Below are positions 4,784 through 15,529 of a stretch of 64,000 nucleotides of DNA, one piece after another. The first letter of the stretch is position 1. Every line of letters begins with the position of its first letter. The DNA comes from Actinomycetota bacterium (GTDB lineage Bacteria > Actinomycetota > Actinomycetes > S36-B12 > GCA-2699445). A program made the position numbers and the translations under genes. Where the stretch lies: positions 1 to 64,000 of the forward strand of contig JAGQTY010000002.1 of assembly GCA_020438795.1 (NCBI GenBank), written 5' to 3'. The notes below the pieces were generated by a model. That model made no database searches and was not told the DNA's origin. It was given only the letters and a program-made list of their open reading frames with translations.

Positions 4784-4787
<4 letters not shown>
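3999..4787 (-). CDS. pyrK: Dihydroorotate dehydrogenase electron-transfer subunit
   Basis: Partner of class 1B PyrD, carrying FAD and a [2Fe-2S] cluster and passing electrons to NAD+. In the 262 residues the four cluster cysteines are visible near the C-terminus (CGTGVCQGC, then CREGAVF), and an NAD-binding-like segment [16 protein letters not shown] lies mid-protein. The usual FAD-binding RxxS motif of this reductase family reads RRQMW here, without the serine, and the usual GPLGNGF reads APLGRPF. It overlaps carB by 4 bp upstream and pyrD by 4 bp downstream. Confidence 0.92.
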
Positions 4788-8098
<3,311 letters not shown>

Positions 8099-8100
8099 GG

Positions 8101-9207
8101 TTACCCCATCATCTCGGCGAAGCGGTCGAACAAGTAGGAGGCATCATGCGGGCCCGCAGCCGCCTCAGGGTGGTACTGCACACTGAAGGCCCGCTGCTCC
8201 AGCAGCCGCAGACCCTCGACCACGTCATCGTTCAGGCAGACATGACTCACCTCTGCCGGACCGTACGGCGTCGCGAACTCGCCGTGCCGGGGGGCATCCA
8301 CCGCGAAACCGTGGTTGTGAGCCGTGACTTCGACCTTGCCCGTCCGGCGGTCCTGGACCGGCTGGTTGATGCCTCGGTGACCGAACTTGAGCTTGTAGGT
8401 ACCGAGCCCGAGCGCACGGCCGAACACCTGATTGCCGAAACAGATGCCGAAGAGCGGGCGTTCGGCGTCCAGCACCGCCCTGACCTGCGCCACCGCCGCA
8501 TCGGCCGTGGCGGGGTCTCCGGGCCCATTGCTGAAGAAGTAACCGTCGGCCTGCGTCGCCAGCAGTTCGGAAGGGGTGGTGGAAGCCGGCAGCACCATCA
8601 CTCGCATCCCCCGCTGCGCCATACGGTGAGGTGTCATCGACTTGATGCCGAGATCGAGCGCCGCCACGGTGAATCGGGCCTCGCCCTGCGGCTCCACCAC
8701 GTACGGTTCCGGCGTGGTGACATCGGCAGTCAGATCCGCACCGGCCATGCCGGGGGTCTGGCGCACCTGCCGAACGAGTTCACCCGGATCCTGGTCCGCG
8801 GCGGTACCGCTGAAGATGCCCACCCGCATGGCCCCACCCTCGCGGAGGTGTCGGGTCAGCGCCCGGGTGTCGATGTCGCAGATACCGACGACACCGGAGG
8901 CAATCAGTTCCTCCTGCAGCGACCGGCGACTGCGCCAGTTGCTCGGGATCGGGGACGGATCCCGGGCGACGTAGCCGGACACCCAGATTCGCCTGGACTC
9001 CGGATCCTCGTCGTTCATCCCGGTGTTGCCGATGTGCGGCGCCGTCTGCACCACCACCTGGCGATGATACGAGGGGTCGGTGAGCGTCTCCTGATAGCCG
9101 GTCATGCCGGTGTTGAAGACGGCTTCACCGAAGGTGACGCCCGTGGCGCCGAACGGTCGGCCCTCGAATGATCGACCGTCCTCCAGGACCAGCACCGCCT
9201 CGGTCAT
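8101..9207 (-). CDS. carA: Carbamoyl-phosphate synthase small (glutaminase) subunit
   Basis: Class I glutamine amidotransferase that supplies ammonia to CarB. The 368 residues have the N-terminal CPSase small-chain domain ([16 protein letters not shown]) and the glutaminase with nucleophile cysteine in FGICFGNQ and catalytic histidine in QYHPEA. I start at the ATG at 9207 ([11 protein letters not shown]), whose A is shared with the stop of the upstream membrane-protein gene; an upstream in-frame start at 9324 would add 39 non-homologous residues. Confidence 0.97.
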
Positions 9208-9806
9208 CAGAGCACCTCCGAAGGGATCGCCATCTGCTCGCGAAGCATGGCCAGACAGGAATCGAAATCGGACTGTTCCGGCAGCCACAGGCCGGTGCTT
9301 ACCGGTCCGGGCAGGGCATCCCACGTCAGCAGGATCAGGCCATGGCCCGCATAGGACTTCTGCAGCATCCCCGGCACGACCGTCACATCAAAGATGTCGC
9401 AGACCGCGATGGTTATTGGTGGGTAGGACGCGCCGCGATCGATCCGCACCGCCGCACCGCTCCCCGGCCTGACCGGACGGGACCCCTCCGGGGGACCGAT
9501 CACCTCGCCGAACTGCAGCTCACCCCAGGCGGGCCCCCCACCCGCGATCACCCGGCGCCAGAGATCGTGAGCCTGCGCGGTCCCGGCGTACTTGCACCGC
9601 ATCGTCGCGCGGGTCTCGAAATCCACCGGGTCGCTGAGCCGGTCGTAGCCACCCTGCCGGATACCCCGACGTCGCCAGCTGCGCAGCAGGAGCAGCAGGA
9701 GTGCGGCAATCACCAGCAGCGTGAGCCCGGTGAGCAGCAACCGGCTCGGCCAGTCCGTGACGGCCGGCTGCTCGGTGTAGGTGGCGGCCTCGACGAGGGT
9801 CACCAT
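9207..9806 (-). CDS. Conserved single-pass membrane protein of the actinobacterial pyr operon
   Basis: 199 residues of unknown function. One hydrophobic helix ([19 protein letters not shown], about residues 23-41) is followed by a basic RSWRRRG stop-transfer and a soluble domain of about 150 residues. That topology predicts an outside N-terminus and a cytoplasmic domain. A gene of this size and layout lies between pyrC and carA in mycobacteria (Rv1382) and other actinobacteria. It overlaps pyrC by 7 bp and carA by 1 bp, so it is fully embedded in the operon. No enzyme motif was recognised. Confidence 0.85.
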
Positions 9807-11110
9807 TGCAGCTCACCGTCCAGCACCGTCGCAGTGCCTCGATAGAACGTAGCGACCACTTTGCCGGGCAGTTCCATGCCCTCATAGGGACAGTTCCTCG
9901 ACGGCCCCGGGAAGTCAGCCGCCCGCACGATCCACCTGGCGTCCGGGTCGACGAGTGTCAGATTGGCCGGCTCACCGATGGCGATCGGGCGCCCCTGGTC
10001 GGTCATCCGACCGATTCTGGCGGGCACGGTCGACATCCGGTCGGCGATACCGTCCCAGCCGAGTCCGTCACCGACAGTCGCGATCACCACGGAGAGCGCG
10101 GTGGGCAGGCCCAGCATGCCGAACGCGGCCACGTCCCACTCACACGTCTTGTCATCGTGAGTGTGCGGAGCATGGTCGGTGGCCACGATGTCGATGGTCC
10201 CGTCGATCAGGCCGGCGCGTAGGGCATCCACATCCGCCTGAGTACGCAGCGGGGGGTTCACCTTGTAGACCGGATCGTATGTCCGGGCGGTCTCGTCGGT
10301 GAGCATCAGGTGGTGGGGAGTCACCTCCGCGGTCACCCGGAGTCCACGCTGTTTGGCAAACCGGATCAGCTCGACACTGCCGGCTGTGGACACGTGACAG
10401 ATGTGCAGCCGGGAGCCCACATGGTCGGCGAGCAGGATGTCGCGCGCGATGATCGACTCCTCGGCGGCCGCGGGCCATCCCTCGAGACCGAGCTCCGCAG
10501 AGACCACCCCTTCGTGCATCTGCGCGTTCTCGGTGAGCCGATGATCCTGGGCATGCTGGGCGATGACTCCGTCGAACGCCTTGACGTACTCCAGCGCACG
10601 GCGCATCCGCAGCGGGTCGGCCACACATCGCCCGTCGTCGCTGAACACCCGGACCCCGGCCGCAGAGTCGGCCATGGCCCCGAGCCCGGCGAGCCGTTTG
10701 CCTTCGAGGCCGACGGTGACCGCGCCCACCGGCCTGACATCCACATATCCCGCGGCTCTGCCCTGGCGCCAGACCTGGATCGCCACACCGGCGGTGTCGG
10801 TCACGGGACTGGTGTTCGCCATGGCGTGAACAGCAGTGAAACCCCCGAGGGCCGCGGCCGCACTTCCGGTACGGATCGTCTCGGCGTCCTCCCTGCCGGG
10901 CTCGCGCAGGTGGGTGTGGAGGTCCACCAGACCAGGGAGCAGGACCAGACCCTCACCCCGCACGATCCGTGCGTGTGGGTCGCTGGCGTCACCGGGGGTC
11001 CGGATACTCTCGATGACCCCGTCACGAATCACCACATCGACAGGATCGCCGCCCAACGGCCTGGCGCCCTCGATGATGGTCACTTCGGGTTGCGTTGCCG
11101 GCTGGTTCAT
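9800..11110 (-). CDS. pyrC: Dihydroorotase
   Basis: Zinc amidohydrolase that cyclises carbamoyl aspartate to dihydroorotate. The 436-residue protein has the metal-binding [10 protein letters not shown] (residues 63-72), further histidines in AQHAQDH and CHVST, and the catalytic aspartate in ATDHAPH. The length fits the long bacterial dihydroorotase class. The start overlaps pyrB by 4 bp. Confidence 0.97.
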
Positions 11111-12057
11111 CGTGGCGTCCCTTCATCCGCAGGCCCGCCACCCAGCAGCAGGTAGAGCACGGCCATCCTGACCGTCACGCCATTGGCGACCTGTTCCACG
11201 ATCACCGACTGCGGCGAATCCGCCACCGCGTCACCGATCTCGAGACCCCGGTTCATGGGTCCCGGATGCATGACGACGACGTCGTCGGACAGACGCGCCA
11301 GTCGTTCGGAGTCGAATCCGTACCGCAGCGAGAACTCCCGCTCGGTGGGGAAGAACGCCTCGTTCATGCGTTCCCGCTGGACGCGCAGGCACATGACCAC
11401 ATCACTGCCGGGCAGCGACTCGTCGAGGTCGTAGGAAACCGTGGCCGGCCAGGTCTGCACACCCACGGGCAGCAGTGTGGGCGGGGCAACCAGCGTCACA
11501 TCCGCACCGAGGGTGTGCAGCAGCTGCACATTCGAGCGGGCCACCCGGCTGTGGAGAACGTCGCCGATGATGGTGACCTTCACCCCCTCGAGATCCCCGG
11601 TGTTGTTCCGCAGATGTTTGCGCATCGTGTAGGCGTCGAGCAACGCCTGAGTGGGGTGCTGGTGCCGGCCGTCACCGGCGTTGATCACCGACCCGTCCAC
11701 CCAGCCGGAGCTGGCCAGCTGCTGCGGCGCCCCCGAGGCACTGTGGCGGATGACGATGGCATCAGCCCCCATCGCCTGCAGAGTGAGGGCCGTATCCTTC
11801 AGCGACTCCCCCTTGGAGACACTGGAGCCCTTGGCGGCGAAGTTGATGACATCGGCGGACAGCCGCTTGGCCGCTGCCTCGAACGAGATCCGGGTCCTTG
11901 TGGAGTCCTCGAAGAACAGGTTCACCACCGTGCGACCCCGAAGGGCGGGGAGCTTCTTGACCGAGCGGTCGGTGAGCGTCTCCATCTCGGCGGCCGTGTC
12001 CAGGATCAGCACGGCCTCCTCATGGCTGAGGTCATGGGCGTTCAGCAGGTGCTTCAC
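11107..12057 (-). CDS. pyrB: Aspartate carbamoyltransferase catalytic subunit
   Basis: Joins carbamoyl phosphate and aspartate to give carbamoyl aspartate. The 316 residues carry the carbamoyl-phosphate signature FFEDSTRTR (about 48-56), the loop [27 protein letters not shown] and the C-terminal [10 protein letters not shown]. There is no pyrI regulatory chain nearby, as expected in actinobacteria. It overlaps pyrR and pyrC by 4 bp each. Confidence 0.97.
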
Positions 12058-12704
12058 AACAGGCCTCCCGTGAGCGCAGGATCAGGCTGATTGCGTACGA
12101 GGACCACCTCGTCGACCCCGTCGATCTCGGCCAGCCGGACCCGGACGCTCTCGCCGAGCTTGGTGTCCACGTTCTTGCCCACGTGATCGGCCCGGATGGG
12201 CAGTTGCCGGTGGCCGCGATCCACCATGACGGCCAGGCGCACGACGGCGGGTCTGCCGATGTCGTTGATCGCATCGAGCGCGGCGCGCACTGTCCTCCCG
12301 GAGAACAGCACGTCATCCACCAGCACGACAGTGCTCCCGTCGATCCCCTGCGCCGGGATGTCGGTGTGTCCGAGCGCGCGGGCCGGCCGTAGTTGCAGAT
12401 CGTCGCGGTACATCGTGACGTCGAGGGAACCGCTGGGTACGGGCACCCCCTCGGTCTCGGACAGCTTCGCGGCGAGGCGATGGGCCAGCAGTGTCCCGCG
12501 GGTCGGGATGCCGAGGACCACAAGATCCGTGGCGCCCTTGGCGGATTCGAGAATCTCATGCGAGATGCGGGTCAGGACCCGGTTCAGATCGGAGGAGTCG
12601 AGGATCGCGGTTTCGTCGGCTGGCTCGGTGGCTGGCTCGGTGGCTGACTCATCGGATGACTCATCAGATGACTCGGCCGCGCTGCCCCGCGCGTCCTGCG
12701 CCAT
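12054..12704 (-). CDS. pyrR: PyrR pyr-operon regulator / uracil phosphoribosyltransferase
   Basis: UMP-responsive RNA-binding regulator of pyr genes with weak uracil phosphoribosyltransferase activity. The PRPP-binding motif [13 protein letters not shown] lies at residues 126-138, and IPTRG and RDDLQLRPA are typical PyrR segments. At 216 residues it is about 35 longer than the family, because of an acidic, repetitive N-terminus ([17 protein letters not shown]). The ATG at 12704 has a perfect AAGGAGGT at 12709-12716. It is the first gene of the operon, and two PyrR-type RNA loops lie directly upstream. Confidence 0.96.
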
Positions 12705-12718
12705 GGTGACCTCCTTCT

Positions 12719-12734
12719 ACGCCTCACCGGACGT
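12719..12734 (-). promoter_or_regulatory. PyrR-binding RNA loop, proximal copy
   Basis: Minus-strand GTCCGGTGAGGC (12732-12721) matches the PyrR loop consensus UCCNGNGAGGY. It folds as a five-base-pair stem ACGUC/GGCGU with hexaloop CGGUGA, the CNGNGA hexaloop known from Bacillus pyr leaders. The hairpin ends two bases before the pyrR Shine-Dalgarno (12709-12716), a position suited to translational repression as described for Mycobacterium smegmatis. Confidence 0.8.
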
Positions 12735-12739
12735 GCTGC

Positions 12740-12753
12740 TGCCTCACTGGACA
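12740..12753 (-). promoter_or_regulatory. PyrR-binding RNA loop, distal copy
   Basis: Minus-strand GTCCAGTGAGGC (12752-12741) also matches UCCNGNGAGGY fully, with stem UGUC/GGCA and hexaloop CAGUGA. It lies exactly 20 bases from the proximal copy, so two PyrR sites stand in tandem in the same leader. Confidence 0.75.
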
Positions 12754-12940
12754 TCGTTCAAGGGTGGTCTCCCCTGGGGACTCGCAACGGCAGGGCTCGC
12801 ACGGGTCCACCAAGTACAAGGCTAGCAAGATGGGGTTTGTGGCGTTCGCTCCGGTTGAACCGTGTGGCGGACATGACTCCTGCTGGCCCGTCTGGAACGA
12901 TCCCCATGTGAGCTCCGCGCGCGAGGACGGGAGGCAGGAG

Positions 12941-15529
12941 GTGCTGTCCGAGGACAGCGCCGAGGTCCCTTCTGCCCCGACCCAGGGGTCGGGCTCGGGA
13001 GATCAGCAGCAGAGCTCCCGGGAGGAGAGCCTGAGCGAAGCGGACCCTCAGCCCGCGCCGACCGGTCAGGGGTCAGGCCCCGACAGTGCTTCGACCGGAC
13101 CGGCGCCGACCGGAACCGCCCGTCGGCGCGACCGCCGGCTGGCGACTCGGGTCCCCACGACGAGCACCGTGAACACCGACATCGGCGCCGTGGTCATCGA
13201 GGACACCGACGTCGTCAAGAAGGTGCGCCGACCGCTGGACCTGCTGCGGATGATCGTGGCGCTGCTCGGGTCCGCGGGTGTCCTGGCCATCGCTTACTAC
13301 GCAACCGCCACCACAGCCGGGATCGGAGAGGACATCGGGGAGGCTTCGGGAAAACTGCCCACCGCGGTCCAGTTCGCCCTGGCGCTGATCGCCGGGATCG
13401 GCATCATCGCGATCCCTGTCGCGACGTCGATCAATCTGCTGCTGCGCCGCCGCCCTCGCCAGCTCATCGACTCATATGTGAGCCTGCTCCTGGCGGTGGT
13501 CCTGCTGATCGTGGGCGCGGAGCTGCTGCGTGCGTTCGGCTCCGACCAACTGAGGGCAGCCGTCGGAGCCGACGGGGACACCGTGGTCTTCAGCCCCCTG
13601 CTCGGTGGCCTGCTGGCCTTCAGCACCACAGCCAGATTGATGTCACGGTCCTTCTCGGCCCTGATGACGTTCCTGGTGCTGTTCTCCCTGGTCGTGATCG
13701 AGGTCCTCGGCAACTCGACGCTGGCCAGCATCGGTGTCTCCCTGCTCGTCGGCTGGGCCATCGGGCTCGCCGTCCGCTACATCTTCGGCACCACGACGAC
13801 GCGACCGTCCGGGATGCAGGTGGCGCAGACTCTGCACAAGGCACATCTACCCGTTACCGTGCTGCGCGCCCAGGAGACCACGAGGGTCGGACGGCGCTAC
13901 TCCGCCATCCAGCGTGACGGCCCCGAACTCGAGATCCTCGTCCTCGACCGCGACCTCGAAGGGTCTGGGCTGTGGTCGGCGTTCTGGAGCACGCTGAGGC
14001 TGCGCGAGTCGAGCAACACCGCATTCAACATGCGCAGGTCCATGGATCAGCGCACCCTGATGGCCTACGCCGCCACGATCGACGACATCCCGGCCCCGCG
14101 GCTGCTGGCCGTTCGCGAGATCGGCCCCGATTCGAGCCTGCTGGCCTACGAACGGATCCTGGGCGAACGACTGTCGAGACTGACCGCCGACGATCTCGAC
14201 GACCGGGCACTGGACAGTGCCTGGTCCGCGCTACAGAAGATGCAGGCATCAGCTGTGGCCCACCGTCGCATCAGTCCCGACAACCTCTGTCTCACCGTCG
14301 ACGGCGACATCGCGCTGCTCGGATTCGGTTCCGGCAATGTCGCGGCGAGCGATCTGGTGCAACGCATGGATGTGGCGGCGATGCTCTGTTCGCTGGCGAT
14401 GGTGGTGGGACCGGACCGTGCCCTGGCCTCGGGTACCCGCTGCCTGGGGGCCGACGGCCTGCTGGCAGCGCTTCCGGTTCTGCAGCCCGTCGCCCTGCCG
14501 GTGGAGACCCGGCGGGCCCTGCGCAAGCACAAGAAGCTCCTCGTCACACTGCGGGACCAGCTGCTGGAGACCGTGCCGGACGGCGAGGTCGAGCAGATCA
14601 AGCTGGAGCGGATCAGACCCAGGACCGTCGTGATGGCGGTCCTGCTGGGCATCGCGGCATACTTCGTCGTCCCGCAGCTGCTCGAGGCGAACCTGGTGAC
14701 CGTCTTCACGACGTTGGACTGGTGGTGGGCACTGGTCGCGCTGGGGGCCTCGATCATCACCTATCCAGCAGCGGCATGGTCGATCTCCGGGTTCGTGCCG
14801 GAGAAGCTCAAGCTACTGCCGACGGCACTGGCCCAGCTGGCCGGTGACTTCGTCACCCTCATCACGCCCCCGACCCTGGGAGCCGTGGCGATCAATCTGA
14901 GATACCTGCAGAAGGTGGGTATCCACCCCGCCCTGGCCACGGCCAGCATCGGCGTGGCCCAGGTCGGCGCCTTCGGCGTCCACACCCTGCTGCTGATCGC
15001 CTTCGGCCTGGTCGCCGGCACCGGCAGTGACTTCGACTTCCACATCCCGACGTTCGTGTTCTTCATCGTGGGTGCGCTCGTGGTCGTGGCCGCGGTCGCC
15101 CTGTTGTTCCCGCAGGTCCGGCGCCGCGTGGTCGGACCCATCGGACCACTGCTGAAGCAGGTCGGTCCGAGGCTGCTCACGGTCGCCCAGACGCCCATGA
15201 AGCTCGTCGAAGGATTCGGCGGCATGCTGCTGCTCAACGCCGGCTACATCGCCTGCCTGATCGCCTGCTGCCACGCGTTCGGGGACGCTCCCGGTGCTGC
15301 CGCCATCGCCGTGGTCTACCTGACCGGTTCAGTGGTCGGGCAGGCAGCGCCCACGCCGGGCGGCCTCGGCGCGGTGGAACTGGCCATGAGCGCCGGTCTC
15401 ACCGCCGCGGGTATGGACTCGGGCCTTGCGGTGTCAGCGGTGCTCCTGTACCGCATCATCACCTTCTGGCTGCCCGTGCTGCCCGGCTGGCTGGCCCTGA
15501 ACTGGCTCACCAAGCACAAGTACGTCTGA
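12941..15529 (+). CDS. Pseudokinase fused to LPG-synthase-like membrane domain
   Basis: An 862-residue membrane protein. In order: a disordered Ser/Pro/Gly-rich N-terminus of about 90 residues; about six transmembrane helices; a soluble kinase-like domain (about residues 280-540); then about eight helices resembling the lysylphosphatidylglycerol synthase/flippase family (SVVGQAAPTPGGLGAVE is characteristic). In the kinase-like part the catalytic-loop HRD reads HRR (441-443, in HRRISPDN) and DFG reads GFG (461-463), so phosphotransfer is unlikely. I chose GTG 12941 for GGGAGG at 12929-12934; GTG 12908 and ATG 12764 are alternatives. It is divergent from pyrR. Role unproven; envelope lipid or glycan transport is an inference. 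Confidence 0.8.
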   Translation: MLSEDSAEVPSAPTQGSGSGDQQQSSREESLSEADPQPAPTGQGSGPDSASTGPAPTGTARRRDRRLATRVPTTSTVNTDIGAVVIEDTDVVKKVRRPLDLLRMIVALLGSAGVLAIAYYATATTAGIGEDIGEASGKLPTAVQFALALIAGIGIIAIPVATSINLLLRRRPRQLIDSYVSLLLAVVLLIVGAELLRAFGSDQLRAAVGADGDTVVFSPLLGGLLAFSTTARLMSRSFSALMTFLVLFSLVVIEVLGNSTLASIGVSLLVGWAIGLAVRYIFGTTTTRPSGMQVAQTLHKAHLPVTVLRAQETTRVGRRYSAIQRDGPELEILVLDRDLEGSGLWSAFWSTLRLRESSNTAFNMRRSMDQRTLMAYAATIDDIPAPRLLAVREIGPDSSLLAYERILGERLSRLTADDLDDRALDSAWSALQKMQASAVAHRRISPDNLCLTVDGDIALLGFGSGNVAASDLVQRMDVAAMLCSLAMVVGPDRALASGTRCLGADGLLAALPVLQPVALPVETRRALRKHKKLLVTLRDQLLETVPDGEVEQIKLERIRPRTVVMAVLLGIAAYFVVPQLLEANLVTVFTTLDWWWALVALGASIITYPAAAWSISGFVPEKLKLLPTALAQLAGDFVTLITPPTLGAVAINLRYLQKVGIHPALATASIGVAQVGAFGVHTLLLIAFGLVAGTGSDFDFHIPTFVFFIVGALVVVAAVALLFPQVRRRVVGPIGPLLKQVGPRLLTVAQTPMKLVEGFGGMLLLNAGYIACLIACCHAFGDAPGAAAIAVVYLTGSVVGQAAPTPGGLGAVELAMSAGLTAAGMDSGLAVSAVLLYRIITFWLPVLPGWLALNWLTKHKYV

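Follow-up and report, generated by a model that had tools for sequence, protein, structure and literature searches.

A predicted PyrR element with two apical loops on one Shine-Dalgarno-sequestering stem in the pyr leader of an Actinomycetota bacterium

PyrR is a textbook RNA-binding repressor, and how its symmetric dimer reads an asymmetric hairpin is, to our knowledge, still an open question. The pyrR-led pyr operon of Mycobacterium smegmatis, which has no attenuator, is reportedly repressed by PyrR at the level of translation (work ascribed to Fields and Switzer, J Bacteriol 189:6236, 2007, and cited in PMC6455119), with a PyrR loop over its first ribosome-binding site. The Rfam family RF00515 describes such RNA elements with one apical loop (a CNGNGA hexaloop), a UC/GG upper stem, a UAA-containing bulge and a CCUU/AAGG lower stem. 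The pyr attenuators of Bacillus subtilis rely on PyrR and UMP at several sites in one operon (PMC7430163). Among other regulators, tandem glycine riboswitches place a doubled sensor domain on one mRNA (PMC3766115).

We analysed a window of 64,000 nt from an Actinomycetota bacterium (GCA_020438795.1, contig JAGQTY010000002.1, positions 1 to 64,000, forward strand), whose pyr leader resembles each of these systems in part. It has the hexaloop, upper stem and lower stem of RF00515, but carries two loops on the shared stem, and GAACG in place of the UAA-containing bulge. As in M. smegmatis, the operon begins with pyrR, a PyrR-type loop lies over its first ribosome-binding site, and no attenuator was found in the leader. 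PyrR, UMP and the RNA core would be common to the window and B. subtilis, where three sites stand in three separate leaders with terminators, whereas here two loops stand on one stem in which the Shine-Dalgarno sequence is hidden. The tandem glycine riboswitches are similar in their doubled sensor and possibly steeper response, but they sense their ligand by RNA and have no such shared lower stem, whereas the sensor of the window is a protein-binding loop. We found no description of tandem or twin PyrR loops in the literature on PyrR leaders and tandem sites, of which our search covered a part of the older papers, so that a prior mention is possible; the twin-loop element is apparently unreported.

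The pyr operon and its leader

The operon has the order pyrR-pyrB-pyrC-orf-carA-carB; all genes share one strand, and neighbours overlap or almost touch. The window's genome has a pyrR, as the first gene of this operon. The genes and the parts of the leader are the following:

4784-8098, minus strand: carB (PF02786, PF25596 and others)
8101-9207, minus strand: carA (PF00988, PF00117; start inferred from the ORF listing)
9207-9806, minus strand: operon ORF of 199 residues between pyrC and carA, without Pfam or NCBIfam match
9800-11110, minus strand: pyrC, dihydroorotase-like amidohydrolase (PF12890, PF01979)
11107-12057, minus strand: pyrB, aspartate carbamoyltransferase (NF002032, 407 bits, cut-off 263)
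12054-12704, minus strand: pyrR (NF003547, 272 bits, cut-off 230; 193 bits to the PyrR structure 5iao)
12708-12716, minus strand: Shine-Dalgarno sequence AAGGAGGUC, which doubles as the 3' arm of the lower stem (predicted probability of being unpaired near 0, except for the bulged A)
12719-12734, minus strand: proximal PyrR hairpin ACGUC[CGGUGA]GGCGU (from folding; helix 2 of the twin covariation)
12740-12753, minus strand: distal PyrR hairpin UGUC[CAGUGA]GGCA (from folding; helix 1 of the twin covariation)
12755-12759, minus strand: junction GAACG, in place of the UAA bulge of single-loop elements (from comparison with these)
12760-12769, minus strand: 5' arm GACC-AC-CCUU of the Shine-Dalgarno-sequestering stem, paired with AAGG-A-GGUC in the minimum free energy fold

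A divergent ORF (12764-15529, plus strand) has an LPG_synthase_TM domain and is MprF-like. Its mechanical GTG start is antisense to the pyr leader, and the true start is probably further in.

The leader reads, on the minus strand, GACCACCCTTGAACG-ATG[TCCAGTGAGG]CAGCAGCACG[TCCGGTGAGG]CGTAG-AAGGAGGTC-ACC-ATG. The initial annotation had placed here two PyrR loops exactly 20 nt apart. Both the coordinates and the description of the loops were borne out by the sequence, in which the 20 nt run from start to start. The distal core UCCAGUGAGG (TCCAGTGAGG, 12751-12742, minus strand) and the proximal core UCCGGUGAGG (TCCGGTGAGG, 12731-12722, minus strand) each fit the consensus UCCNGNGAGGY, as claimed, and when folded alone each gives the expected hexaloop hairpin (-2.0 kcal/mol for the distal and -4.5 kcal/mol for the proximal one). 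In both, the CNGNGA hexaloop is closed by C-G and U-G, a feature of RF00515, and two bases indeed separate the end of the proximal hairpin (12719) from AAGGAGGT (12716-12709). The distal one is weak, with four pairs, including U-G, followed by an A.G mismatch. The two 20-nt units are identical at only 12 of 20 positions (12 of 14 in the loop part), which makes an exact assembly duplicate unlikely. Their second stem pair, U-A in the distal hairpin and C-G in the proximal one, is a compensated difference. Searches of the window's own genome found no other close pair of cores and, using the single-loop model, no second PyrR leader (next matches at E of about 3 or worse).

The loops had been correctly read as PyrR-type and as lying over the ribosome-binding site, but the lower stem had been overlooked: instead of standing as separate sites, they form the two apical hairpins of a common anti-Shine-Dalgarno stem, CCUU/AAGG. 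This lower stem of RF00515 is present in the window and common to both loops; its AAGG is the Shine-Dalgarno sequence of pyrR, and the element overlaps the first ribosome-binding site of the operon. For the naked RNA, the predicted optimum (-22.3 kcal/mol) has one repeat paired with the other in its upper part, and the twin-hairpin form is predicted at -16.4 kcal/mol. Hence, PyrR binding would have to select the twin-hairpin form. The same Shine-Dalgarno stem is closed, and its bases are predicted to be paired, in both folds. Folding alone therefore predicts the off state, and without PyrR, ribosomes would have to compete against the stem. We found no intrinsic terminator in the leader (12650-13000), which favours translational control over attenuation. 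A search by consensus found no promoter for the operon.

Single-loop relatives

We fetched thirty pyrR loci from the window's genome, family and order. Of the 29 loci from the family and order, 28 have a single-loop element before pyrR; the 29th (L030) was read on the wrong strand and is uninformative. The six family members that were inspected, all from four other genera, have one loop each. So do the sampled genomes of genus g31 in family f9 (L173, L175 and L176), which we take to be Mycobacterium, whereas the window has two. The expectation that both loops are kept upstream of pyrR in the nearest relatives was thus contradicted within the family and order, where all informative relatives have one. 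The supposition that one site per leader is the usual case was upheld, both in these relatives and in the samples of whole phyla described below.

The consensus of the single-loop elements is GACAUCCUUUAAC-CCG[UCCNGUGAGG]CGG-GAAGGAGGUC, or in a longer form GACAUCCUUUAAC-NCCG[UCCNGUGAGG]CGG-NGAAGGAGGUC. In these relatives GACAUCCUU pairs with AAGGAGGUC, so that the Shine-Dalgarno sequence itself forms one strand of the lower stem. Stem and hairpin covary: 94.2% of the cells are paired, and changes on both sides number 8, against 1.9 in shuffled alignments (0 of 500 shuffles). These double changes include the outer Shine-Dalgarno pairs.

Twin-loop elements in other lineages

We searched 84,980 species genomes for pairs of cores with AAGG after them, requiring neither the stems nor CCTT, and obtained 51 stretches. 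Two Streptomyces stretches (L068, L082) and one of Acidimicrobiaceae (L073) have missing or broken outer stems, lack CCTT, and have no pyr gene in sight; they look like chance matches. The others, taken together with the window, make 50 twin elements: 10 in Tsukamurella, 35 in Chloroflexota, three in Armatimonadota, one in Deinococcales, and the window itself. The loops are spaced by 19-23 nt in all true cases. CCTT was found 9-16 nt before the first loop in 45 of the 50, against 1.2% expected by chance; it is slightly closer in the three Armatimonadota and L106, and missing in L072. Alignment with MAFFT failed to bring the CCUU arms of the lineages together, and the evidence for the lower stem of the twins is therefore positional rather than a covariation count. 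The element precedes pyrR in Tsukamurella and Armatimonadota, lies upstream of pyrR in Deinococcales, and is followed by carA or carB in Chloroflexota. PyrR scored above the curated cut-off in 12 of the 14 twin genomes tested, the other two being MAGs. A looser tandem pattern matched in 31 of 395 genomes of the class; among the loci inspected, only the window and one Tsukamurella genome had it before pyrR, and the others were repeats or coding sequence.

Both hairpins of the twins covary. Among 16 distinct elements from five lineages, 94.8% of the cells are paired, against 79.1% when shuffled, and 25 cells change on both sides, against 8.2 (0 of 500 shuffles); controls with slid structures gave 26-49% of paired cells. 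Relatedness inflates these counts, but the pair types differ between phyla: the second pair of hairpin 1 is U-A in the window and Armatimonadota, C-G in Tsukamurella and Deinococcales, and G-C in Chloroflexota. For the examples from Armatimonadota and Deinococcales, folding predicts the twin hairpins themselves as the optimum. The architecture is thus observed in sequence, gene context, covariation and recurrence.

The bulge differs between the two kinds of element. CCUU is directly followed by UAA in 76 of 78 single-loop elements, and in 75 of 77 distinct ones (from Actinomycetota, Chloroflexota, Deinococcota and Armatimonadota), against one of 40 distinct twin elements. UAA is kept in three of 12 distinct Tsukamurella twins and in one of four Deinococcota twins. 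The GAACG of the window differs from UAA and is purine-rich, as are the bulges of several other twins. Judging from these sequences, the exact bulge appears to be relaxed when a second loop is present, which need not mean that its function is lost. The Fisher value for this contrast takes no account of relatedness and is not to be taken as a probability.

A covariance model of the twin element was then run on genome samples of each phylum. It matched in 149 of 246 Actinomycetota genomes, among which the window gave the only full-length, high-scoring match (57 nt, 61.8 bits); the next best (37 nt, 38.8 bits) corresponds to one loop. All 16 Tsukamurella species have a full-length twin. There were matches in 51 of 121 Chloroflexota (a handful full length, most single), in 36 of 81 Armatimonadota (three full length, L230-L232), and in 74 of 81 Deinococcota, where three loci beside L087 read as twins on inspection (L211-L213). 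The latter have deviant cores, e.g., GCGGUC[CAGUGA]GACCGC, with U-A for the usual U-G of the loop stem; they were missed by the exact-pattern scan, and our twin counts are therefore lower bounds. One loop is the rule; in each phylum twins form a sparse and dispersed minority, and at least one genus has them fixed. Conservation, which fails among the nearest relatives, thus holds farther out, where the twin is kept throughout Tsukamurella and recurs in three other phyla. The simplest reading is that twins had separate origins.

The Rfam model of the PyrR element misses nearly all twin elements. RF00515 had no match in the window, either at the gathering threshold or at E up to 10, and of nine loci scanned with it L079 alone gave a score, which at 34.4 bits falls short of the gathering score of 54.

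Some of these loci have features of their own. In L079 (4542-4656, Armatimonadota), the Rfam alignment places a hairpin, CGUGCCCUUGUCC...GGACAAGGGCACG, and a U-run after the twin element before pyrR; this looks like an intrinsic terminator, and the twin there may work by attenuation. Three Chloroflexota loci (L080, L089, L110) have a short ORF of 34 codons, similar in sequence among them (SIGGG.RRAPR.GA.A.P), which starts 7 nt past the twin's AAGG and shares part of its span with the carA frame; it is possibly a leader peptide or a translation artefact. In L115 (about 1405-1490; Chloroflexota, G412 contig C33 11191-11239), pyrR has a single-loop element with the deviant core CACGGUGAGG and with CCUUUAA and the lower stem intact, in a genome that also has twin carA/carB leaders.

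Proposed mechanism and role of the second loop

The window leader probably carries one composite PyrR element, with two loops on one stem, that locks the ribosome-binding site and represses translation. Translational control, which the initial annotation had considered likely, fits the position of the element over the ribosome-binding site and a leader in which no terminator was found. We infer PyrR binding, its dependence on UMP, repression and the role of the second loop from PyrR biology, and binding, stem closure and the block of translation follow the published case of M. smegmatis. The lower stem, GACC-AC-CCUU/AAGG-A-GGUC, would bury the Shine-Dalgarno sequence of pyrR and bear the two apical hairpins. 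When UMP/UTP is plentiful, PyrR would sit on these hairpins and hold the structure closed, so that ribosomes could not load on pyrR, and pyrR-pyrBC-carAB would be repressed by coupling or polarity. Without PyrR-UMP, ribosomes would find the stem open often enough to allow expression. The second loop may have arisen when the apical part of an ancestral single-loop element was duplicated locally, and would give a tighter or steeper switch.

The spacing of 19-23 nt, the one shared stem and the relaxed bulge lead us to favour joint binding of both loops by one PyrR dimer. Our tentative reading is that twins are a distinct mode of PyrR recognition that evolved several times, in which one two-fold symmetric dimer clamps both loops and the second loop takes the role of the UAA bulge. 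If this is true, the switch would be tighter or steeper and the bulge sequence free to drift. Each loop also has a complete core and its own stem, as would befit two independent PyrR sites that act additively, for redundancy or a stronger block and with no special geometry. Such additive binding is possible though somewhat unlikely: two complete single-loop elements cannot coexist on a lower stem common to both, the spacing is conserved in all true cases, and the relaxation in twins of a bulge that singles keep points to a joint unit. That the proximal loop alone works, the distal one being a recent or decaying duplicate, would agree with the weaker distal stem and with family members that have no distal loop. 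We consider it improbable, since the distal core is intact despite the divergence of the flanks to 12/20 identity, the distal stem pair is preserved through the exchange of C-G for U-A, the twin is fixed in Tsukamurella, and both hairpins covary.

PyrR is also known to act on a terminator, in attenuation of the Bacillus kind (PMC7430163), and the terminator-like hairpin after the Armatimonadota twin leader (L079) is a parallel. For the window such control is very unlikely, because no terminator-like site was found in the leader and the 3' arm of the element is the Shine-Dalgarno sequence itself, directly before the start codon. One core alone carries little weight, given that TCCNGNGAGG occurs 268 times in the 3.58 Mb, GC-rich assembly of the window. 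Yet, the chance of a second core within 25 nt is about 0.002, and for two cores within the 60 nt that precede pyrR the expectation is about 2.5e-6; together with the comparative data, which refute it, this leaves a chance resemblance of two 10-mers with hardly any probability.

The twins, occurring as they do in lineages from four phyla, and their relaxed bulge provide a natural experiment on how a symmetric dimer reads an asymmetric hairpin, and the twin element supplies binding and structural studies with a defined RNA. A set of pyr regulatory sites escapes the Rfam model, namely those of carA/carB in Chloroflexota and of pyrR in Tsukamurella, Armatimonadota and Deinococcota.
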